In this document: positions 47,284-64,000 of the stretch, piece after piece
Layout of the letters: every line of letters begins with the position of its first letter
How positions within the stretch are numbered: the first letter of the stretch is position 1
Origin: a virus
Virus record (IMG/VR): IMGVR_UViG_3300021171_000006
Span: 27,354-91,353 of that record
Strand: one strand, 5' to 3'
DNA: 64,000 nt
Notes under the pieces: model-generated
What the model saw: only the letters and a program-made list of their open reading frames with translations
The model's database searches: none
Told to the model about the DNA's origin: nothing
Program-made: the position numbers and the translations under genes

Positions 47284-47477
47284 TGCTGATCCCCGACGGC
47301 GACCTACAGTACCATCTGGTCATGCAGATCATGCGCGGGCGTATGCTGATGTCCTATTGGCGCGCGTACCGGGGCGGTGAGTTGGTCAGCGATTTCTGGG
47401 TCTGGGACCCGGCGGATCCGCCTCCGACCGCCGAGCCGGCCAACAACAACGATTTCGAGGAAAGGGTCGCAGCATGA
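47283..47477 (+). CDS. Small hypothetical protein (64 aa)
   Basis: Met-rich N-part (LVMQIMRGRMLMSYWRAYRG), then VSDFWVWDPADPPPT. Overlaps the M16 gene by 4 bases. Not recognised. Confidence 0.5.
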   Translation: MLIPDGDLQYHLVMQIMRGRMLMSYWRAYRGGELVSDFWVWDPADPPPTAEPANNNDFEERVAA

Positions 47478-48733
47478 CCGTCCGCATCGAGAAGTTGCCA
47501 AGCGGTCTCAGGATCGTTACCGATTCGTTCGATAGCCCGCTCGCCGTCCTCCAGGTCTCGGTTGAGGTCGGCACCCGGTGGGAGCCGCCGCACCTCAATG
47601 GTCTGGCACATTTCCTTGAACACATGGCGTTCAAGGGCACCCTCCGGCGCACGGCAAGCGATATCAGCGAAGCGATTGAGAACCGGGGCGGCTGGATCAA
47701 TGCCGGAACCGGGAAGGACATCACCAACTATTATACCGGCGTCCTGGCGGAAGACGCGCCCGTAGCACTCGACGTGCTTGCGGACATCGTGTGCAACTCC
47801 ACGCTACCGGAGGAGGAATTCGAGCGCGAGCGCGGTGTGATCTTGCAGGAGATCGCCGACCTTGAAGACGAGCCAATGAGTTGGCTCGCTGATCGCATGA
47901 TGGAAATTACGTTCATCGGTGGCCTGGGAATGCCGGGGCTCGGCTCTCCCGAAACGCTGAGAAGGATTGAGGTCAGCGATCTTGCCAACCTAGTGGCGGC
48001 TCATTACGAGCCGGGCACGATCATCGTTTCGGCTGCAGGCGGGGTCGACCATGACGCTATCACGCGGGCTGCCGAGCAATTGTTCGACCTCGGCCACCGC
48101 GAGGTTTCCAAACGGCACGAAAGCCGCAAGTCCGAATTCTTCGGTGGGAACAGTTTTCGTCAGGCCCGCAAAACCGATCAGGTGCAGATCATTGTTGCCT
48201 TTCCGTCGTTCTCGCTCGGCGACCCCGATCTCTATGCCGATTGCGTCCTGCAAAAAATCATCGGGGGATGTAGCACAAGCCGTCTGTGGCGGGCGCTGCG
48301 GGAAGATCGCGGGCTCTGCTATGATGTCTATTCCTCAGCCCAGGCATGGCGCGAGGCCGGCATTGTCGGCGTAAAATTGTCAACTGGAGCCGACTCGGCG
48401 GCTGAGGCGATCTCCGCGCTCGTCACCGAATTGCAAAAGGTACGGGATGCCGGCCTCACCGACGAGGAGTTGGCGCGCGGTAAAAAGCTGATGCGCGCCG
48501 AAATCGTCATGGAGAATGAATCGGCGGCGTCCCGTGTTGGCGCTGTCGCGCACCATCTGGCAATCCATGATCGCGCTTACGATCTGAATGAGGAGTTGGA
48601 CCGGTTCGCCGCAGTCGATCATCGCGCCATCGGTCGGTGTATCGAGCGGATGTGGTCAACGCCGGCGGCTGTCGCGATCCGCGGCCCGAAGCGCATCGTC
48701 GAAACTGACATTCAGGAAATGCTGCGTGCCTGA
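47474..48733 (+). CDS. M16 family zinc metallopeptidase
   Basis: 419 aa, full-length. Inverted zinc motif HFLEH at 46-50 (GLAHFLEHMAFKGT), with the third ligand Glu126 in ERGVILQEI at the expected distance. The C-half has the M16C plan (KTDQVQIIVAFPSFSLGDPD, GLCYDVYSSAQAWREAGIVG). Closest in plan to bacterial processing peptidase-like M16B enzymes. The start overlaps the upstream gene; the last bases overlap the J-domain gene. No signal peptide, so it acts in the cytoplasm. Confidence 0.9.
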   Translation: MTVRIEKLPSGLRIVTDSFDSPLAVLQVSVEVGTRWEPPHLNGLAHFLEHMAFKGTLRRTASDISEAIENRGGWINAGTGKDITNYYTGVLAEDAPVALDVLADIVCNSTLPEEEFERERGVILQEIADLEDEPMSWLADRMMEITFIGGLGMPGLGSPETLRRIEVSDLANLVAAHYEPGTIIVSAAGGVDHDAITRAAEQLFDLGHREVSKRHESRKSEFFGGNSFRQARKTDQVQIIVAFPSFSLGDPDLYADCVLQKIIGGCSTSRLWRALREDRGLCYDVYSSAQAWREAGIVGVKLSTGADSAAEAISALVTELQKVRDAGLTDEELARGKKLMRAEIVMENESAASRVGAVAHHLAIHDRAYDLNEELDRFAAVDHRAIGRCIERMWSTPAAVAIRGPKRIVETDIQEMLRA

Positions 48734-52201: not shown

Positions 52202-53515
52202 GTGACCCACGTCTGCATCGAAGAGCGCGGCGCGCCGAAGATCGTCGGGTGGACATCGGCCATACCTGGCACCGAGCGGACAATGACGCGTGTCGCTCGC
52301 GGCCCGGTGCCGGCGCTACCGAAGGGCTGGAAACGGCGATTTCGGAACAAGCCCTTCCCGGTGGCGCAGATCGTCTACCACACCTTTGCGGTGCGCACGG
52401 TGTACCGCGACAACATCCCGACGCGCGTCATCATGCTCGGAACCGGGAATGACCCAACCGCTCTGCCGGACTGGCGGAAGGCGTGGGACTATTCGATCCT
52501 CTACCCGAACATCTTTGGGAGAGAGGTCCACTTCCGTCGCCGAGAGCAACCAGATGGGCCGGTCTATCCGATACGGTTGGTCCGACCTTCGTATTTCGAA
52601 ATGCGTCGCGACTCGACCATCGGCATGCCGTTGATGGGTTGCGACGATGAAGGGGGCGGCATCACCGTCTGGCCCGAGCCGAGCGATGAATGGGAGATCG
52701 TGCCGACGACGGAAGATCGTCGCACCTACTCGTTCGAGCCGCCACGACCACGACCAGTAAATTTCTTTCACGGCAGGAGCGCGCTCGGCAATCTGGCGAG
52801 CGGTATAGTCCGACAGACCACCCTTAACGGCGGAGAGGCTCCAGTTGGTGTGCGCGCCTCGCCCGACACTTACGCCGCCCTACAGAGACAGTTCATTGAT
52901 GTAGGGTCGCGGGCGTTTGCTGACGCGCGTGGCTTGACGGTCATGGGCATCCCTGTCGTCTCCGATCCGTTCGTCCCGCCCGGTCAGGCGTTTATCATTG
53001 GCGCAGACCCGGCTCACGATCGCGGCGCAGTGGCTGTTGCCAGAATTGAAGCCGGTCAGATTACCGCAATCAACGTCACGAATGCTGGTGCAGGCTATAC
53101 AGCGCCGCCCGATTTGGTCTTTGGTCAACGACGCGCTTTCGTTCCTCGGGTTTTTGCGGATCTGTACAGCACCGGTGTCATAATAGACCCCGAGACGGCG
53201 CAGCGTTCGAGAGAACGGGCGCGTGGTCTACTGAAATCGCTACTGACCACGCAGCAATGGGCCGAGTTCGAAGCGGTGGGGGCGGTCACCGAGCACATCG
53301 ACGGGTGCGAGTTCAAGCTGCGGCCCTGCCACATGATCGAGGCAACGAAGCCACGCCTTATAGGAAAGGTGCGCGAGCGCTGGTGCGTCACGCCGCAACC
53401 CTACACGGTCGGTGAGGACTGGATGCCCGAGGAGGACAAGCTGATCGGGCAACTGCTGCATCTGCGCGCCGGGCCTGACAAGCTGCGCGCGGCGGCGAAC
53501 ATCTTCCCCGCCTAG
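52202..53515 (+). CDS. Large hypothetical protein beside the terminase
   Basis: 437 aa from GTG 52202. N-part aromatic and basic, with VYRDNIPTRVIMLGTGNDPT. The middle (GGEAPVGVRASPDTYAALQR, TVMGIPVVSDPFVPPGQAFI) recalls virion coat-like folds; AINVTNAGAGYTAPPDLVF is a tail-fibre-like turn. The last 100 residues form a separate alpha/beta module (QQWAEFEAVGAVTEHIDGCE, FKLRPCHMIEA). Not recognised as a whole. Converges on the terminase gene. Confidence 0.55.
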   Translation: MTHVCIEERGAPKIVGWTSAIPGTERTMTRVARGPVPALPKGWKRRFRNKPFPVAQIVYHTFAVRTVYRDNIPTRVIMLGTGNDPTALPDWRKAWDYSILYPNIFGREVHFRRREQPDGPVYPIRLVRPSYFEMRRDSTIGMPLMGCDDEGGGITVWPEPSDEWEIVPTTEDRRTYSFEPPRPRPVNFFHGRSALGNLASGIVRQTTLNGGEAPVGVRASPDTYAALQRQFIDVGSRAFADARGLTVMGIPVVSDPFVPPGQAFIIGADPAHDRGAVAVARIEAGQITAINVTNAGAGYTAPPDLVFGQRRAFVPRVFADLYSTGVIIDPETAQRSRERARGLLKSLLTTQQWAEFEAVGAVTEHIDGCEFKLRPCHMIEATKPRLIGKVRERWCVTPQPYTVGEDWMPEEDKLIGQLLHLRAGPDKLRAAANIFPA

Positions 53516-55461
53516 ACTAGGCCGCGATCTTCCATCCAAGATGACGGGACGTAAGGATTTTCGGCTCGTTCTTCTGCCGTTCTGAAAAAATCGTAAACCA
53601 TCCGCCGAACGATGGTTCCCATCACGGTCGTCTCGCCGGCCTCGGCGGCGCTCACGTTCTCGTAGGTCGCCCCTTCCTGTAGAAGCGAGTTCCGTAGGTG
53701 GTCGATCCACGCCCGGTTCGCCAGCGCGGCGGCAAACACCCGGTCATCCTTTTGCTTGCCCGGCGCTTCGGGGGCGATGTCGGAGCGGGTCTGCCGCATC
53801 GTGCTCATTTCGTCGAGCAGCGGCATCGAGCGGATATCGAGAACGTCGGTGGTGAACGAATCGCGGAATTGGTTCATCAACTCCATCTTCGTCCGCCAGG
53901 TCGTTTCGAAATTTAACACATAGCCCGCCCCCATGCTGTCGGGCCGGTGGTAGAGATACCAGCGCGCTTGGTCGAGGAAGTCCTCCCATTCGAGGCCGCG
54001 CACCCTGTTCGCGTAGATCTCGGCGCGCAGCCGCTCCTTCAGCTGGTCGAACTCGCGCATGATGGCCCGGCCTGGCCCACCTAATTCGACGTTGACCACG
54101 CAGTTGCGATAGGCCCCGGCGAGATAGGCCAGTATCCACGCCGCCTGGTGGGTTTCGAGGTCGGCGTCGGCGAACTCGGCGCATTGCACGAGACGGTCGG
54201 CATACGCTCGCCAAACGGAGATTGCTGAACGATCCGCCCACTCTGTGCGTCCGTAAGCCGGATCGCAGCCGATAACGTAGATCCCCTCCGGGTGCGGCTC
54301 ATGCCAGACGCGGAGCGTCACCTGGTCAATGAGGGCGGCGTCGATCACCTCGCTCATCTCGGTCTGGAAGATGTTGGTGCCGATGTTGAACGTGTATCCC
54401 CGGAAATAGATCGCCTCGGGGTTCTCGTGATCGGTGTGGGCAAGGCGCTGCCGGCGATCGATGTCCTCCGCCCATTTCTGGATCACCCGGCTCAGGAAGA
54501 ACGAATACCCCTGGACCTGAAAGGCTTGGGTCTCGGTCCAGGGTTGCGACGCCTCTAATGAGCCATCGGCCAGCGCGCGGTCGGATTGACGCCAGCGATA
54601 CCATGCCAGCTGCTCCATCGAGACCGAGTAGCCGTACATCTGCGCGACCTGGCGGATCAGTTCGCCCTCTTCGGCGTTTGGCATGATCGTGCCGAAAAGA
54701 CGGAACCGGCGATCGGTGCGTTCGATGCGGTTTTGCGGCTTTGCCCACCAGCCGATAAAGCAGGTGCGCTTCGTGTACGGATCGTCCTTCGCCGAGATCC
54801 ACATATCGTGCCACGGCGTTCCGTGCCCATAGGCGCGCGACTCAAAGATGAACAGCCGATCAGGGTGGCCCTGCGAGAGGGTTTCGCGGAAGCTGTCGAT
54901 ACCTTCCTGCGTCCCGTAAGCCCCGACCTCGCTGCACCACGCAAGGACATAGCCCTTCGAGTCGGCCCAGCTTTTCTTGTGCTGACCGGCGACCAGGAAA
55001 TCGAGCCGCGCGCCGTTCGAGAAACTCATATAGAACCGGTTGTCCTTGACGATCTCAAACGAAGAGCCAAGAAAATCCTCGGGGAAGGATTCCATCATCT
55101 TGTTGATTTGATCGCGGAACCCGGCAGAGTTCTTGTCGTCATCGGCGACAAGGCATCCAATAATACGGGGGTGGACTGCGAGCCAGAAAATGAGGATGGC
55201 CAGGCCGATCGTGGTCAGACCAAGCTGCCGGCTCTTGAGATTGTAGAATTCGTGGATGTCGTCTTCGAGGGCGTCGCATAGCGCTTCAAGGAACATCTGC
55301 TGCGACAGCCAAAGGTCAAGATCCGAGCCGCCGCGCTCGTCGTCGATGCTCTCGGATTCCTTGGACTGGATGCGCAGCTTCGAGATGAACTCAAGCAGCA
55401 GCGGCAGCCATTTCTGCTTTTTCGCCTTCTTCCGCAGTGATGGGGTGAGTTTTGTCGCCAT
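53512..55461 (-). CDS. terL: Terminase large subunit
   Basis: 649 aa. ATPase part: KSRQLGLTT (residues 76-84, Walker A-like), with LVADDD following; nuclease part: YVIGCDPAYGRTEWADRSAI with catalytic Asp, then ELGGPG and DDRVFAAALANRAW. It cuts and pumps DNA into the prohead. Converges with 52202. No small terminase is obvious nearby. Confidence 0.85.
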   Translation of the reverse strand: MATKLTPSLRKKAKKQKWLPLLLEFISKLRIQSKESESIDDERGGSDLDLWLSQQMFLEALCDALEDDIHEFYNLKSRQLGLTTIGLAILIFWLAVHPRIIGCLVADDDKNSAGFRDQINKMMESFPEDFLGSSFEIVKDNRFYMSFSNGARLDFLVAGQHKKSWADSKGYVLAWCSEVGAYGTQEGIDSFRETLSQGHPDRLFIFESRAYGHGTPWHDMWISAKDDPYTKRTCFIGWWAKPQNRIERTDRRFRLFGTIMPNAEEGELIRQVAQMYGYSVSMEQLAWYRWRQSDRALADGSLEASQPWTETQAFQVQGYSFFLSRVIQKWAEDIDRRQRLAHTDHENPEAIYFRGYTFNIGTNIFQTEMSEVIDAALIDQVTLRVWHEPHPEGIYVIGCDPAYGRTEWADRSAISVWRAYADRLVQCAEFADADLETHQAAWILAYLAGAYRNCVVNVELGGPGRAIMREFDQLKERLRAEIYANRVRGLEWEDFLDQARWYLYHRPDSMGAGYVLNFETTWRTKMELMNQFRDSFTTDVLDIRSMPLLDEMSTMRQTRSDIAPEAPGKQKDDRVFAAALANRAWIDHLRNSLLQEGATYENVSAAEAGETTVMGTIVRRMVYDFFRTAEERAENPYVPSSWMEDRGLV

Positions 55462-55464
55462 GGA

Positions 55465-55803
55465 TTACGGGTTGTCGCGCCGCCAGCGCCGAACCTGGTC
55501 GACGCAATCCGGTTCCATGGAGGTGAAGCCAAGCACCAAATAGATATGTAGCGGATCGTCTTCGAAATAGATCTCCATCCCAACCTGGAACTTTGGGATA
55601 AGCGACTGTGCAAATACGCCGTCGGTGTAGGGCGGCAAGGCTTCCCCACTGAAGGGATGCCGAGAGACCCCCATGGGGACATCATCGCCTACCGGCCGAT
55701 GCTGATAGGCCCCCTCGTTAACGACCTCACGTTCCGCCCTCAACTCAGCAAGTCGAGAGGAAATGCTGTCGTAATCGTTAACCAAAACGGGAAGGTTGGA
55801 CAT
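55465..55803 (-). CDS. Hypothetical protein between portal and terminase (112 aa)
   Basis: Helical N-part (SNLPVLVNDYDSISSRLAEL), then a beta-rich C-part (FQVGMEIYFEDDPLHIYLVL, GFTSME). Directly between portal and terminase genes on the same strand, so perhaps a packaging or connector part. Not recognised. Confidence 0.5.
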   Translation of the reverse strand: MSNLPVLVNDYDSISSRLAELRAEREVVNEGAYQHRPVGDDVPMGVSRHPFSGEALPPYTDGVFAQSLIPKFQVGMEIYFEDDPLHIYLVLGFTSMEPDCVDQVRRWRRDNP

Positions 55804-55815
55804 GGCGTTACCCTA

Positions 55816-57684
55816 TCAGTGGCGCCGGCCGCCGTGCTGCCCCTTCTCCAGCATTTGCGGATGGGCCTGGATAAAGGCGGCGTGCTCGGCCTCGCGTGTT
55901 TCGAGCGCTTCGACGAGCTCGTCCTCGCGGGGCGGGTGGGTCAATTCTATCGTCTCCCGCGGACTGACCGCCTGGAGCTTCGCCAGCGCGAAGATCAGAT
56001 CACGCGCCTCTTTGCTGAACATCGGCGATGAGGAATGAGCGTCGACCGATACGCGCTGGTTGTCGTCGAGTTGGGCGAGCACGAAGGGGATGGGGACGAG
56101 ACCGGGGGCCGGCGGCTCGTAGATATCCGCGTCCAGCTTTTGCCCTTTCCACAACCCGGCATACTTCTCAGGAACCCAGGCGACCATCTCCTCGCCGGAT
56201 TTCACCTTCAGTATATCGAGAGCAAGCCCAGCTACCGCGTCGACGCAGCGCTCAGCGGCGAGCGCCTTGTCCTTGAACCTGGGGCTCGCCATGCGAACGA
56301 GGGTCTCGGCGTGGGCCTGCGCCCTGACGCCCGATTCTCCCTCGCCGCGAACCGTCGCCGGCATTCCGCCGATGTCGTTGAACATCTGCATCAACTCATG
56401 CAGCGAGCGCCACGAGTCGGCGGGGACCGTTGTAGCAAGGGCCTGAGCCTTTGCGTTTGGGTTCTGATCGGTCAGATACCCGCCGGGCTTGTTCTGCTTG
56501 GCATAGAGGTTCTGGTTGATCGACGAGCCCGAGATAAGGCGAGGCGGGTTTTCCTCCTTCCGGAGCATCTTGTTGATGCCGTCCATGCGCCTGTTGAGGG
56601 CCGCCTGGATCGATCCGACGATCCGAATTTCGGAGTCTCCCCAGAAATATTTCGGCATGCGGTCGATGCAGAATTCAACGAACGGGTGCCGGCCGCGCAG
56701 CGGGTTGTTCTCGCGCTTCCGCTTGGCCTCGGCCTCCTCGTCGCTACCGCTCCGTCGCCCGGGTTGCACCGGGACGCCTGGCTGGAAATTGTCGGCGAGC
56801 GCGTTGTAGAGCATCTTGTTGGGGATGAGGACGCAATCGGGGCCGACCAGCTGGATCGTTACCCAATCGTCGACGGCGCTGTCCCACACCCATAATTCAT
56901 CGAGTGCGATGAGGTTGACGCGCGTCTCCGGCGAAAGTTGCGGCTGCGGCGCGGTGAGCCAATCGACGATCCCGCGATTGCTCTTTTGTCCGGGGATCGG
57001 CGCGCCCGACACCTGATAGGGATAGAGGCCGCCGAGCATGACCATCCGTGTCGTGGCGTAGTTGTCGACCTCGCCACGGTCTTTCCCCGGTGCGCCGATC
57101 AGGTATTGTTTCGCCGCTTGGAGGATCGCCTTCTCCTTGCGCGGCACCATCTTCAGATACGTCACCCTGTCGCGGAAATCGTCGAAGGTGATCCATGTCC
57201 GGTGAAAGAATGCCTTCTGAGAGGCCAGGGTTGGGCGTCCTTCCTCCAATACCCCAAACTGCTCCGGCATGATGAGGCGCGGCTCAAGCCCACTCTTCGT
57301 CGAGTGCAATTCGATAAAGGTCTTGCCCTTGATGAGCGCCCAGAGAACGGCGTCCTCGATCATCGAATCGCAATCGGAGCGGCGAAATTCGAGATTGAGT
57401 TCAGCCGCGGCGGCGTGACCAAGAGCGCGCTCGATGGGGCCGGCGCGCCCATGCGGGGCAACATTGAGCTTCAGTTCGATCGGGCTGTAGATCATCGACG
57501 CCAGATCGTCGATGTAGGCGTAGGTCTTTTTGTAGATCTGCGGCGCCCCGTCGGCGGAGCCGGTCAGGAAAACGTTCTGGTACATCGCCCCGCGCTCTAG
57601 GCGGGACTGCATGGAAACCGCACAGCGGCCGATCAACTCCGTCGCAAAGTCGCCGATCTCGGTGAGTTTGGTGGGAACGAACAT
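55816..57684 (-). CDS. Portal protein
   Basis: 622 aa. Starts with a helical clip/stem-type region (IGDFATELIGRCAVSMQSRL), then wing-like beta parts (FGVLEEGRPTLASQKAFFHR), with QAALNRRMDGINKMLRKEEN, MASPRFKDKALAAERCVDAV and a long C-terminal helix typical of portals. The size and place beside the terminase support the call; no signature motif exists for the family. Confidence 0.75.
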   Translation of the reverse strand: MFVPTKLTEIGDFATELIGRCAVSMQSRLERGAMYQNVFLTGSADGAPQIYKKTYAYIDDLASMIYSPIELKLNVAPHGRAGPIERALGHAAAAELNLEFRRSDCDSMIEDAVLWALIKGKTFIELHSTKSGLEPRLIMPEQFGVLEEGRPTLASQKAFFHRTWITFDDFRDRVTYLKMVPRKEKAILQAAKQYLIGAPGKDRGEVDNYATTRMVMLGGLYPYQVSGAPIPGQKSNRGIVDWLTAPQPQLSPETRVNLIALDELWVWDSAVDDWVTIQLVGPDCVLIPNKMLYNALADNFQPGVPVQPGRRSGSDEEAEAKRKRENNPLRGRHPFVEFCIDRMPKYFWGDSEIRIVGSIQAALNRRMDGINKMLRKEENPPRLISGSSINQNLYAKQNKPGGYLTDQNPNAKAQALATTVPADSWRSLHELMQMFNDIGGMPATVRGEGESGVRAQAHAETLVRMASPRFKDKALAAERCVDAVAGLALDILKVKSGEEMVAWVPEKYAGLWKGQKLDADIYEPPAPGLVPIPFVLAQLDDNQRVSVDAHSSSPMFSKEARDLIFALAKLQAVSPRETIELTHPPREDELVEALETREAEHAAFIQAHPQMLEKGQHGGRRH

Positions 57685-58490: not shown

Positions 58491-58828
58491 CAGGCCGCTT
58501 CCTCGGACTTCTCGGGAAAATGCAGTTCGGCCTGGGCCCACTCTCTCCACTCGATCGGGCGCAATTGGACGGCTCCAGCTGTCTCTGCGGCATGCCAGAC
58601 GCCGCCATCGACCCATTCATGGCCGACGCGACGCCGGCTGTTGCGCCAACGGATCGGGCGACCGACTTCCTCTTCGGGTGAAAAGCGCCCCTCGACGATG
58701 CGGTCATGCGGCCCCTCGTCGATCGGTCGCCACGGGTTCTCGACCGCAGCAGGCTCCGATTGGGCTTCTTCAGGCGGCTCGGGCGGGTTTTGTTTCCGGG
58801 GCGGCGGTGAGGTCCGGTGGCTGTCCAT
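58490..58828 (-). CDS. Pro/Glu-rich hypothetical protein (112 aa)
   Basis: Disordered N-part (PPPRKQNPPEPPEEAQSEPA), then a compact Trp-rich end (HEWVDGGVWHAAETAGAVQL, RPIEWREWAQAELHFPE). Overlaps the next gene upstream by 59 bases. Confidence 0.5.
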   Translation of the reverse strand: MDSHRTSPPPRKQNPPEPPEEAQSEPAAVENPWRPIDEGPHDRIVEGRFSPEEEVGRPIRWRNSRRRVGHEWVDGGVWHAAETAGAVQLRPIEWREWAQAELHFPEKSEEAA

Positions 58829-59294
58829 AAGGAGTCATCCCGTGATTTATTGCTGCCATCGCGAGTGCCAAAATGCGATTTGGCTCTTTTTCGCCTTGGT
58901 CGTAGACCTTGAGTTGCCTTATCGAATAACCTAGAACGCGAGCGGCCTCTGCTTGTGTCAGATTATGCCCCAACCGCCAAGCACGGAATTTTGACACCGG
59001 CTCTGACGATCGATTTATAGGTTTTGAAAATATTGCCGAGCGATCGATATCGACGTTTGGGTCGATGATAAGCATGGTTTCATCGTATCGAAACCATTCT
59101 CCACGTAATAGTAAATGTCTGTAATGGAAATGCAGTAATTTTTCTGTTGTGCGGTCCCCGTCTGATATTATCCTAACAATAATCAATTGCTCAGGAACAT
59201 AGGTTTGGATGTCTCGTATCCGAGACGCCGGCACTTTGGCGAACCCAATTTTCACGGGGCCATCTTCGCCGCGCCGGATAAAGTAGACGCTCAT
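58770..59294 (-). CDS. T5orf172/MUG113 nuclease domain fused to XRE HTH
   Basis: 174 aa from ATG 59294. Residues 1-85: SVYFIRRGEDGPVKIGFAKV, FHYRHLLLRGEWFRYDETML, the GIY-YIG-type T5orf172/MUG113 pattern with (R)GEWF. Residues 105-150: FRAWRLGHNLTQAEAARVLG, YSIRQLKVYDQGEK, an XRE HTH. The DNA is much more AT-rich than around it, suggesting import. It heads the minus packaging run. Confidence 0.75.
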   Translation of the reverse strand: MSVYFIRRGEDGPVKIGFAKVPASRIRDIQTYVPEQLIIVRIISDGDRTTEKLLHFHYRHLLLRGEWFRYDETMLIIDPNVDIDRSAIFSKPINRSSEPVSKFRAWRLGHNLTQAEAARVLGYSIRQLKVYDQGEKEPNRILALAMAAINHGMTPYGQPPDLTAAPETKPARAA

Positions 59295-59356
59295 AGCAAC
59301 GCTATTATCACGAAAGGTGCGGAATATCGAAGGGAAGAAACTGCACCTTTGGCCAA

Positions 59357-59362
59357 TTGACA
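59357..59362 (+). promoter_or_regulatory. Possible -35 box at the divergent junction
   Basis: TTGACA occurs in the AT-rich gap between the minus packaging genes and the plus assembly genes. No clear -10 at 16-18 bases. Divergent promoters are expected here. Confidence 0.25.
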
Positions 59363-59434
59363 ATGGACGGCACCGAAATAGCCCCTACTGTGATCTACGC
59401 CCGACGTGGGCTTATCCCTGATCAGGAGGATCAC

Positions 59435-60049: not shown

Positions 60050-61342
60050 ATGACGCGAAACTGGCTCTCCTATCCCTCGGCGGAATTCGCCAACTGCACC
60101 GTCTATCTGCCGGACGTGGATAACAACGGGCACGCAATCATGGCCGTCCGTGAGACGATGGACGGTCACAGCGTCATTCTGTTTGCGGGTGGCAACGAAG
60201 TTCCGGTTATGCGGACGGCCAAGACGGTCATGGCCGATCTCGTGCCGCCGCCAGATCCGCCGGTATTCGTCGGGCGGCTCAACCCCGACGCCCCGACCGC
60301 GACATTCTCCGGCGCTGCCGATCCCGGCTCGACGGTCGTTATCCGAGATGGCGCGGTATTGGCCGCGACGGCGCAGACCGATGCGACCGGGCAATGGGAG
60401 ACGACCTCCCCCGTGGACCTCACGCCCGGTCCCCACACGATGATCGCCATCCAGACCGACATCTTCGGCCGTGAGAGTAAGTCGTCCACGCCGTGCCTTC
60501 TTGACGTGCCGGAGCCGAAGCCCTTGCCGGAGCCCCCGACCCTTGTCGTTCCGGAAACCGCAAGCGGCCCAGCAGGCACCCCGATCGCGCTCCCCATTAC
60601 CGCCTCATTGGCGGGGGCCGACGCGAGCGATCCCGACGCCGTGCTGTCGATCGGTATTTTGGGTGTGCCGAGCGACGCCACCCTGTCAGCCGGAACACGC
60701 AACAGCGACGGCAGCTACACGCTGACCGAGCCGCAGCTTTCCGGCCTCACCATCACCACGACAGCGGCGCCCACAGCCTTTCCCCTGTCGGTCTCTGCCG
60801 CCAGCACCTCCCGCGGCAACACCGCAGCGGCCGGCGGCGTCATCAACGTCACCACCAGCGCACCTGTTCCGCTGCCCGCAACCGCCCCGACCATCGCCGA
60901 AAACAAGCCGCTGTCCGTTATCGTCGGGGCCGCAGGGACAATTACCTCGGGCGACTTGAGCGCCAATGAGCCGGGCGCCTCTCCCTCGCAGTTGACCTAC
61001 ACGGTTACCGGTGGACCATCGAACGGCACCCTGCTGAAAGGTGGCTCGCCGGTCACCCAGTTCACTCAAGCTGACATCGACAGTGGAGCTGTCAGCTACC
61101 AGGAGAACGGCAGCGGCGCCACGGCGGACGAGTTCGCTTTCCAGGTCGCCGACCCGGCGGGCGGCACCACAACCGGAACCTTCGGCATCACGATCTCGCC
61201 AGCAGAGCCGGTTACCACCGGGGTTACGGCGACGGCTGGTGGCCCAGGCTTCGCCACCCCGCCTCCCGTGACGATCACCGGTGGGGGCACGACAACTGCG
61301 GCCGATCCCGCCAACCCCGCACCACAACAGCAACCGGAGTAA
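60050..61342 (+). CDS. Ig/cadherin-like beta-domain protein
   Basis: 430 aa. N-part with FANCTVYLPDVDNNGHAIMA; residues about 75-155 a bacterial Ig-like domain (PDAPTATFSGAADPGSTVVI, DATGQWETTSPVDLTPGPHT); residues about 290-375 a cadherin/CSPG-like repeat (GDLSANEPGASPSQLTYTVT, ADIDSGAVSYQENGS, DEFAFQVADPAGGTT). Ends in Gly/Thr/Pro/Gln. Probably displayed on the capsid surface to bind glycans or help assembly. Confidence 0.7.
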   Translation: MTRNWLSYPSAEFANCTVYLPDVDNNGHAIMAVRETMDGHSVILFAGGNEVPVMRTAKTVMADLVPPPDPPVFVGRLNPDAPTATFSGAADPGSTVVIRDGAVLAATAQTDATGQWETTSPVDLTPGPHTMIAIQTDIFGRESKSSTPCLLDVPEPKPLPEPPTLVVPETASGPAGTPIALPITASLAGADASDPDAVLSIGILGVPSDATLSAGTRNSDGSYTLTEPQLSGLTITTTAAPTAFPLSVSAASTSRGNTAAAGGVINVTTSAPVPLPATAPTIAENKPLSVIVGAAGTITSGDLSANEPGASPSQLTYTVTGGPSNGTLLKGGSPVTQFTQADIDSGAVSYQENGSGATADEFAFQVADPAGGTTTGTFGITISPAEPVTTGVTATAGGPGFATPPPVTITGGGTTTAADPANPAPQQQPE

Positions 61343-61546: not shown

Positions 61547-62212
61547 ATGCCCGATCCGTTCGAGGGGGTCGAGTTCACCCCCGAGCAGAAGAACGAACTC
61601 CTTCTCCTGCGGCGTGGCTTCGCACTGTTGAACTCGGTGTCCGGCGACGTCGATGTGCGCCGCAAATTGCGCGCCGCCAACCCGACCGCCGGCATCTCCG
61701 TTCCCGAGGACGACATCGCCGAGCCGCTCTTGAAGCCGCTGCGCGAACGCCTCGACGCGATCCAGACCGACCACACCGAAACGCTGGCAAAGATCGACGA
61801 GAAAACGGCAGCCTTCGACAGCAAGGTCGCCGAATGGGAGCAGAAGCATAGGGACGCCGCCGATCTCGGTGACCTGCAGAAGAAGATCGCCGCAGCCGCG
61901 AAGCACTACCGGTTCACCGACGAAGGCACCACCGCGCTCATCGAGCACATGAAGACGACCGGCACCGCCGATCCGATGACCGCCGGCGCCTACCTCGTGC
62001 AGAACATGGAGCGCCCGGCCCCGGTGGCCGAGACCGGCCTCGCGCCCGAGCAAGCTCGCCGCAACGGCGCCCCCGACGTTGACCTGTTCAACATCTCGAC
62101 GGGCCAAGACGACGAGTCGATGAAGCTGCTCCACAGCGGACCCAAGGGCGCCGAAAAGTGGATGCAGACCGAGATCAACAAGATCATCGCCGAGGGGCAA
62201 GAAGCAGCCTGA
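61547..62212 (+). CDS. Helical coiled-coil protein, scaffold-like
   Basis: 221 aa. Long helices (AIQTDHTETLAKIDEKTAAF, KVAEWEQKHRDAADLGDLQK) flanked by charged ends, in front of the capsid gene. Position and all-helical look fit a scaffold or head-assembly protein. Its stop shares a base with the HNH start (TGATG). Confidence 0.55.
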   Translation: MPDPFEGVEFTPEQKNELLLLRRGFALLNSVSGDVDVRRKLRAANPTAGISVPEDDIAEPLLKPLRERLDAIQTDHTETLAKIDEKTAAFDSKVAEWEQKHRDAADLGDLQKKIAAAAKHYRFTDEGTTALIEHMKTTGTADPMTAGAYLVQNMERPAPVAETGLAPEQARRNGAPDVDLFNISTGQDDESMKLLHSGPKGAEKWMQTEINKIIAEGQEAA

Positions 62213-63141
62213 TGTCGCTCGGCCCCGCCCACAACCCCGAGTATACTCCCCGCTCAATCGGAGCGGCGGAGGCGGGTATGGCGCGCGGAGACACCTACGA
62301 GAAATTCTGTCCGGATTGCCGGAAGGTCTTCTACACAACGAACAACCGGGATGTGCGCTGTCCATCGTGCACCCCAGAGTGCGCGGTCAACGGCTGTACC
62401 AATCCATCGAGACCGCATTCGCGTGGTCTGTGCGGAGCGCACGCCTCGCGGCTGTGGAAACATGGAACACCGACCAGCAAGAGGCTGCGCAACTGGCAGA
62501 CCGGGCCGTGCTCGGCTGATGGTTGCGATGAGGCGGCTGTCAAACGCGGGTTCTGCGAACTCCACTATTCGCGAGTGAGGCGTACCGGATCGCCTGGGCC
62601 AGCGAAGAGCACAAAGAAGCCGCGCGGCGTCCCGTGTGAGGTCGCGGGATGCACGCGCATGACTCACGCGAACGGCCTGTGCAGCATGCACGGAAGCCGG
62701 CTGCGGTTCAGGAACGATCTTGGTCCGGCCGAGCCACTGATCGCGCCCGATGGCAGCGGCCACTTCACCAAGAAGGGCTACAAGATCATCCATGTCGATG
62801 GTCGGCGTATCCTTGAACATCGGTACGTGATGGAGCAGCACCTCGGGCGGCGACTGACCGCCGAAGAGACGGTGCACCACGTCCGCGACGAAATGGAAAA
62901 GCCGAACAACGACATCACCAATCTCGAACTCTGGTCGTCGCGCCATCCAAGCGGGCAGCGGGTTACCGACAAGGTGGCCTTCGCCGTCGAGATGGCAAAG
63001 CTGTATCCGGGGGAACTCGCCAAGCAGGGCTTTCGGTTGATGCCGCTCGAAAGCGCGGAATCCACTCAAACCCTCCTCGGTGAGCCGTCTTATCGCGACT
63101 TCGATCCGGCCGCCGTTATTAGGCGGTGGACGAACGCATAG
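62212..63141 (+). CDS. HNH endonuclease with zinc fingers, in the capsid block
   Basis: 309 aa from ATG 62212. CPDCRKVFYTTNNRDVRCPS ... then three C-x4-C/GxC-xxH repeats (CAVNGCTNPSRPHSRGLCGA, CSADGCDEAAVKRGFCELHY, CEVAGCTRMTHANGLCSMHG) and an HNH_3-type nuclease (HRYVMEQHLGRRLTAEETVH, HVRDEMEKPNNDITNLELWS). Homing-type nuclease between the assembly gene and the capsid gene. Confidence 0.85.
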   Translation: MSLGPAHNPEYTPRSIGAAEAGMARGDTYEKFCPDCRKVFYTTNNRDVRCPSCTPECAVNGCTNPSRPHSRGLCGAHASRLWKHGTPTSKRLRNWQTGPCSADGCDEAAVKRGFCELHYSRVRRTGSPGPAKSTKKPRGVPCEVAGCTRMTHANGLCSMHGSRLRFRNDLGPAEPLIAPDGSGHFTKKGYKIIHVDGRRILEHRYVMEQHLGRRLTAEETVHHVRDEMEKPNNDITNLELWSSRHPSGQRVTDKVAFAVEMAKLYPGELAKQGFRLMPLESAESTQTLLGEPSYRDFDPAAVIRRWTNA

Positions 63142-63157
63142 GTAGAGGGGCGACCTG

Positions 63158-64000
63158 ATGGCATTCCCAAGTACAATCGTCTCGCCCGTAAGTTCAGGAA
63201 TATTTCCTGGTGGGGTTATCGGGGCTCAACTAAGTGAAATGACGAGGCGTGCCGTAGTCCCTACAGTATTCGTCCAAATATATCAGTCTCACCCCCTCTT
63301 GTCATTACTTCTGTCGAACGCCACCCCGGCTCGCGGAGGCGCACCACAGGTGGTTATTCCTGCCCAGGGCGCTAGCTATGTTGCGTTTAATTGGGGCTCG
63401 TTTGCCGGCGACTTTCCAATGCCGAGTGACGAAGCGGCGATCGAGAACGCGCAGTTCAACCTCAAGCTGGGGATGGTCCCGATCGGGTTCTTCGGGATGG
63501 AAGCGATCATCCAGTCGAGCGAGGTGATCATCCCGAAACTGCGGGCGGTGACGAGCGATGCGGCGACGGTGATCCGGCAGGCGCTGGCGTCGTCGATCTA
63601 CACGAACAATTCGAACAACGGGCTGGCGCTGGACTCGCTGTACCAGGCGTATGACAGCGGGACGAACGCGCCGTCGTATGGCGGGATCCCGCGGGCTCAG
63701 GCGCTGTGGTGGCAGGGTCAGCTGCTGGCGGGGATCGGTGCTGTATCGAACCGGGCCGGGATGGCGACGACGTTGACCCGCGTCATGACGGGGGCGGCGG
63801 GCGAGGCGCCTGATTTCGCGGTGATGAACCCGGCGGACTGGGCGACGCTGTTGCAGGACTTCATGGCCTCCGAGCAGTACTACAACACGGCGAATTCGCG
63901 GTGGGGCCGTGACGACGTGGCGAATGCGGGTTTCCGGGCGATCCGGGTGCTCGACACGCCGGTCTTCGCCGATCCGTTCTGCCCGAGGGGCGAGGCCTAC
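63158..64000 (+). CDS. Major capsid protein-like, 3' end cut by window edge
   Basis: 281 residues visible, frame open to the edge. GMEAIIQSSEVIIPKLRAVT, DAATVIRQALASSIYTNNSN, YGGIPRAQALWWQGQLLAGI and DFAVMNPADWATLLQDFMAS recall major capsid proteins of the kind found after portal/scaffold genes. The first 88 codons use mixed codons (AGT, ATA, TTA, CCA), while from about 63,421 nearly all end in G or C. No Shine-Dalgarno of strength. Family call by look and position. Confidence 0.65.
   Translation, partial: MAFPSTIVSPVSSGIFPGGVIGAQLSEMTRRAVVPTVFVQIYQSHPLLSLLLSNATPARGGAPQVVIPAQGASYVAFNWGSFAGDFPMPSDEAAIENAQFNLKLGMVPIGFFGMEAIIQSSEVIIPKLRAVTSDAATVIRQALASSIYTNNSNNGLALDSLYQAYDSGTNAPSYGGIPRAQALWWQGQLLAGIGAVSNRAGMATTLTRVMTGAAGEAPDFAVMNPADWATLLQDFMASEQYYNTANSRWGRDDVANAGFRAIRVLDTPVFADPFCPRGEAY

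Follow-up and report, generated by a model that had tools for sequence, protein, structure and literature searches.

Phages that are nearly identical elsewhere differ in 20-30% of their DNA over the start of the major capsid gene, yet keep 90-98% of the amino acids encoded there, and these replaced starts are associated with an HNH endonuclease gene, or the relic of one, in the slot directly upstream. From these comparisons we judge it rather probable that an HNH homing nuclease and a silently recoded capsid start move together by co-conversion. The case is built on a stretch of 64,000 nucleotides (the window), in which the capsid gene carries an abrupt break in codon usage, and on a survey of its relatives, in which a shorter form of the same feature is general.

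Codon break in the capsid gene of the window

The features of the window that bear on this are the following.

61547-62212, plus strand: scaffold-position gene, 221 aa, named by position only; adjoins the HNH gene on its 5' side
62212-63141, plus strand: HNH endonuclease gene, 309 aa, with a PHROG match; an optional insert in the family
62632-62694, plus strand: best-scoring Zf_WRKY19-like Cys/His repeat, slightly below the Pfam cut-off
62818-62946, plus strand: HNH core, residues 203-245, with VHH and NLELW kept
63158-64000, plus strand: major capsid protein gene, first 281 codons, with its ATG at 63158; runs off the window
63158-63433, plus strand: flat-codon (recoded) tract, capsid codons 1-92, defined by third-position composition
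63419-63434, plus strand: breakpoint, where the flat-codon tract gives way to the GC3-rich remainder, from the change-point analysis

The first-pass annotation had reported a codon-usage break in the capsid gene, 0.3 kb past an HNH gene. The break is real: a third-position change-point falls after codon 92 (nt 63434) with an LR of 34.6, as against a maximum of 13.4 in 1000 shuffles, and a split after codon 87 (63419) is almost equal (LR 32.9). Its distance from the HNH gene also holds, as that reading frame ends at 63141, 0.28-0.29 kb away. In consecutive 30-codon blocks, capsid GC3 runs 0.36, 0.53 and 0.50, then 0.93, 0.93 and 0.87. Codons 1-87 use synonyms almost evenly (for valine, GTC, GTA and GTT three times each and GTG once; the six leucine codons once each). 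After codon 87, GC3 is about 0.9, with GCG for 25 of 31 alanines, ACG for 10 of 11 threonines, CCG for 9 of 10 prolines, CTG for 10 of 14 leucines, CGG for 7 of 10 arginines and ATC for all 11 isoleucines. The capsid gene stands alone among the genes of the window in joining so long a low-GC3 start to such a high-GC3 remainder; the others show only a mild GC3 dip at the start on average.

The capsid gene was identified by its match to phrog_9953, major head protein (PHROG, E 8e-15). Its 3' end (G000:C1, about 1-361) is found at the opposite end of the same record, which is 91,353 bases long. The two contig ends, 63861-64000 and G000:C1:1-142 (L075), overlap by ~140 bases inside the capsid gene, and the genome is thus probably circular. 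The overlapping ends differ at only about 5 bases (TCCGAG versus CACGAT), which suggests assembly from at least two strains.

The scaffold-position gene was without a family match in profile searches (Pfam, PHROG). On its 5' side, a cadherin-like and bacterial Ig-like protein is encoded at 60050-61342 (plus strand), with no match in the loci of the first relative set. The terminase and a 622-aa portal-position gene lie on the minus strand (53512-57684) and the head genes on the plus strand; the orientation of the portal-position gene varies among relatives (forward in L005 and reverse in L068, for example). Between the packaging and head genes, a T5orf172/MUG113 gene (GIY-YIG type; 58770-59363, minus strand) with a C-terminal HTH region is a probable second homing-type gene. 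The phage also encodes an M16 (insulinase-type) peptidase at 47474-48733 (plus strand), with both N- and C-terminal domains present.

The HNH endonuclease of the window

The start codon of the HNH gene shares one base with the stop codon of the gene upstream (TGATG at 62210-62214). The protein matches PHROG HNH endonuclease families with E values down to 7e-18 and scores 16.6 bits against Pfam HNH_3, below the cut-off of 24.8. The residues VHH...N...NLELW are invariant across six aligned HNH proteins, the window's and those of five relatives; with the PHROG match, they mark a catalytic core of the HNH_3 / I-HmuI type. Compared with the five relatives, the window protein has a two-residue insertion in its loop and has lost the usual DG, and with its catalytic loop so altered the enzyme may be inactive. 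It also contains several tandem small Cys/His repeats, Zf_WRKY19-like, which are probably DNA-binding.

A search of the phage's own genome returned one HNH_3-type match. No close relative of the window HNH protein was found in the IMG/VR protein search, and a PDB sequence search gave no match. In another arrangement, an HNH gene at L151 (on the same contig as L019; 45% identity to the window's) lies directly after the capsid stop, not before the start.

A family-wide dip and an optional insert

Relatives were gathered with five capsid queries and reduced to 104 distinct loci. In all 104, a homologue of the scaffold-position gene lies directly 5' of the capsid gene or of the HNH insert. The scaffold-position and capsid genes are separated by 0-110 nt in 94 loci. 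The 10 loci with a longer gap comprise six with an HNH gene, three with an HNH relic and one with neither. The last is L100, whose gap of 257 nt contains an open frame of roughly 80 codons that does not match HNH proteins. Same-strand HNH genes start a few bases from the upstream stop codon and end close to the capsid start, so that each insert fits the operon tightly.

Outside this set, a nucleotide search of phage records gave no match, and the protein search gave no more than two "Bacteriophage sp." records, each about 36% identical, so the family has no named cultured relative. A genome collection yielded one matching contig, binned as Geobacteraceae, a match too weak to assign a host.

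In GC-rich loci, capsid codons 1-45 have a GC3 of 0.638 as against 0.842 later, and the start is the lower in 68 of these 71 loci. The family as a whole thus shows a dip of about 45-60 codons, and the window tract is a longer version of it, reaching to about codon 90. Capsid codons 1-60 also hold the greater part of the family's excess synonymous divergence. The earlier reading had tied the GC3 step to the HNH gene; in its simple form this does not hold, since the dip is found in relatives without any HNH gene, and strong steps are likewise present in HNH-less relatives such as L027 and L022.

A dip so widespread at the 5' end would fit a constraint on expression, in which a high AT content and weak structure are maintained at the start of the very highly expressed capsid mRNA, as a codon ramp or an RNA element. 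The tract RNA is less structured than it would be with the codon choice seen in the remainder of the gene (mean z +2.18), but its folding energy equals that of synonymous shuffles within the tract (mean z -0.05), and on this ground selection on RNA structure was rejected. Nor does the gene directly 5' of the capsid gene show a dip (0.785 at the start versus 0.761 later, in GC-rich loci). A general gene-start effect was rejected on that account and because the dip in the other genes of the window is mild on average. An overlapping reading frame was rejected too, as none is conserved open and one antisense frame is open in 21 of 104 loci within the tract versus 78 of 104 elsewhere. An expression constraint would moreover leave unexplained the patches replaced in near-identical phages and the recoded codons 281-326 of L101, both described below, and we regard it as very improbable.

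Replaced capsid starts in near-identical phages

Evidence for co-conversion comes from phages that are alike on both sides of the tract. In six such pairs, discordant for an HNH gene or relic, the fraction of identical codons in the tract is 0.39-0.58 (0.73 in L149/L148), as against 0.85-0.97 in codons 93-280, and 90-98% of the tract amino acids are kept. Between L010 and L006, identity is about 95% upstream and 98% over the remainder of the capsid gene; over codons 2-60 the two use the same codon at 44% of shared residues, at 97% amino-acid identity. L010 has an HNH gene in the slot and L006 has none. L068 carries an HNH gene of which its sister L009/L077 retains only a short relic matching the gene's ends; between them codons 16-75 are replaced, while codons 1-15 are almost unchanged. 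The same pattern is found with an intact HNH gene in L098 versus L097 and in L135 versus L143 (a pair less alike overall), and with a 56-aa in-frame HNH relic in L133 versus L138. In L149, which has an HNH relic, versus L148, the identical-codon fraction of 0.73 over codons 2-60 reflects changes confined to about the first 19 codons, in flanks that are 100% identical upstream and 95-100% downstream.

The HNH gene is thus optional at the same slot in near-identical genomes (L010/L006, L098/L097 and L068/L009). Beside the HEG+ allele the flank is replaced and identity is regained with distance, and codon identity at the start is reduced in all six HNH-involved nearest-neighbour pairs. The first-pass annotation had proposed co-conversion around a homing site, an idea that these relatives support and that the window by itself does not.

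Replacement also occurs where the slot is empty. For L142 and L139, identity is 95-100% across 2.6 kb upstream, falls to 78% in the first 200 bp of the capsid gene and is mostly 96-100% beyond them; neither has an HNH gene in the slot. The close HNH-less pairs L142/L138, L140/L141 and L018/L020 are recoded as well, so that a present HNH gene is not necessary. An assembly artefact is unlikely as a general cause, because identical or near-identical tracts recur in independent samples (L133/L136 and L138/L139).

With close pairs counted after collapsing near-identical loci, 7 of 8 HNH-involved pairs are recoded versus 7 of 23 others (Fisher p 0.011), where recoded means above a cut-off of 0.25 that was set after the data were seen, the counts are small and the pairs are not independent, as they share lineages. 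When one nearest neighbour per locus is taken, 5 of 6 HNH-involved pairs are recoded versus 3 of 13 others (p 0.04); the sixth, L149/L148, has a shorter tract and reaches 0.24 against the cut-off of 0.25. The evidence for an association of the recoded tract with an HNH gene or relic is good but not conclusive.

Ordinary allele exchange would account for part of this pattern, if the 5' end of the capsid gene were a recombination hot spot, HNH genes passengers, and codon selection relaxed near the start. The recoding in HNH-less pairs is what it would lead one to expect. The L010 and L006 tracts, moreover, are about equally far from each other and from the outgroup L076 (pS 0.76, 0.60 and 0.68), which fits an allele drawn from a related lineage; part of the tract difference could be ordinary divergence of such an allele. 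Exchange of this kind fits less well with patches of 60-270 bp inside one gene with both flanks unchanged, with their enrichment in HNH-involved pairs, or with the excess in the tract of high amino-acid identity at low DNA identity (next section). It would also call for a shared donor tract; among the loci checked no donor was found, and no tract was clearly closer between two phages than their backgrounds, a result that counts against co-conversion as well. We consider allele exchange by itself unlikely.

Signs of silent change beyond ordinary divergence

Among pairs at 68-79% DNA identity, amino-acid identity is at least 95% in 10.5% of pairs for codons 2-60, as against 0.8, 6.3, 0 and 0.1% of pairs in four other capsid segments. 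We did not take same-codon contrasts between distant relatives as proof, since a difference between flat and biased codon use is enough to yield them. In the 3' part of the capsid gene, L101 (on the same contig as L017) has a private AT-rich recoded tract of 46 codons (281-326), whose protein is identical to that of L018; the L101 locus gave no HNH match, a point against the co-conversion reading, and the set contained no plausible donor locus for the tract. Together with the excess over codons 2-60, this tract points to a turnover of silent sites beyond normal divergence. Within a low-GC subgroup, two mid-gene windows behave alike: capsid codons 175-203 are recoded with the protein conserved between L028/L050 and L034/L091, as are codons 195-223 between L029 and L048/L051.

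Silent change could also build up through mutagenic repair, in which repeated cuts and error-prone repair raise the local mutation rate and purifying selection leaves mostly silent changes. Repar and Warnecke (2017, PMC5378118) offered this as one of two explanations for an excess of SNPs next to mobile introns; the lower GC3 of the tract would fit mutational drift. The dense patches of L149/L148 and L142/L139, set in nearly identical DNA, look instead like replacement, not gradual mutation, and we think this route improbable, more so than allele exchange.

For the window itself, a recent recombination that replaced the 5' part of the capsid gene had been suggested. This is not demonstrable, since its best relatives are only about 75% (rest of the gene) and 63% (tract) identical in DNA. 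The two parts had also been expected to have different closest relatives; at the protein level these come from the same subgroup (L003, L068 and L009). DNA-level neighbours of the tract and the rest do differ, yet all are at 75% identity or less. As judged from these alignments, it is in synonymous sites that tract and rest differ, and not in protein ancestry. Having no close relative, the window is read through its family, and we infer its own history from there.

A proposed homing mechanism

In the co-conversion reading, a free-standing HNH homing endonuclease would target the capsid start. In carriers, a 5' tract of 20-90 codons would be altered mainly at synonymous positions, so that recognition by the nuclease is lost and the protein kept. 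When a co-infecting relative is cut, repair from the carrier would transfer the HNH gene together with the recoded tract. The same slot would be re-entered by HNH genes from several lineages, which would decay and leave relics, and recoded tracts would outlive the nuclease or be exchanged alone as resistance alleles. Repeated turnover of this kind would shift the codons of the tract away from the GC-rich preference of the genome and so produce the GC3 step. We infer cleavage, its site, resistance, the direction of transfer and the passage of the window through this process from the replaced tracts and the slot they adjoin.

Comparison with known systems

The Seg enzymes of T4 are GIY-YIG nucleases. 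The free-standing SegF and SegG of that phage cut away from the nuclease gene, co-convert the flanks and exclude the relative's allele (marker exclusion; PMC2988022). As there, the nuclease gene described here is intron-less and lies near an essential gene; several T4 free-standing endonucleases also have start codons that overlap the upstream gene, as does the window HNH (PMC2988022). Unlike SegF/SegG, the present enzyme is an HNH protein and its cleavage is presumed, and the flank differs mainly by a synonymous, codon-flattened tract, across a whole capsid family.

A second parallel is the HNH enzyme gp210 of phiPA3, which is directed against a conserved coding site of a competitor, as we propose here; silent recoding of the target protects, since phage titre in the presence of gp210 was restored by a copy of phiKZ gp178 bearing 17 silent mutations (PMC11620839). 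The gene for that enzyme lies in an intron of an RNA polymerase gene, and the silent changes were introduced by design (PMC11620839), whereas here the nuclease gene is free-standing, the capsid is at stake and the recoded tracts are natural.

In fungal mitochondria, diversity is in excess next to mobile introns (Repar and Warnecke 2017, PMC5378118), and in plants the exons on either side of the cox1 intron are co-converted (PMC3192709). Both resemble our case in that differences cluster beside the site of a homing element with the protein constraint kept, and were ascribed to co-conversion or mutagenic repair. Those cases are SNP-density gradients or co-converted exon stretches; in our phages, synonymous change comes close to saturation over 20-90 codons of one gene.

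In phages, HEGs are enriched beside essential genes, those for capsid and terminase among them (Barth et al. 2023, PMC10448857), and marker exclusion has been shown for some Skunavirus HNH endonucleases (PMC12724721). As in those phages, HNH and T5orf172 genes lie beside essential genes in ours; silent recoding of the neighbouring gene is not described in the main text of either paper, where the word "synonymous" is absent. In the open-access literature we found no account of a phage structural gene that has been silently recoded in nature in connection with an HNH gene.

Possible meaning for phage competition

Steps in GC3 at gene starts need not imply foreign origin. Near-identical pairs such as L149/L148, L010/L006 and L142/L139 make cleavage and resistance directly testable.

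More broadly, we put forward as a tentative proposal, held with less confidence than co-conversion itself, that rival homing nucleases exert diversifying selection, at the level of DNA, on the synonymous sites of the capsid gene. A nuclease and its cut-proof target would then form one cassette and recoded targets alone would act as resistance alleles, giving a start that is hypervariable at silent sites over a nearly constant protein. Homing nucleases are directed at conserved coding DNA, as the protein encoded there has no freedom to change. If the answer of phages is natural silent recoding on a wholesale scale, synonymous sites would be a battlefield in phage-phage competition, and local breaks in codon usage may allow nuclease targets to be recognised from the sequence by itself.
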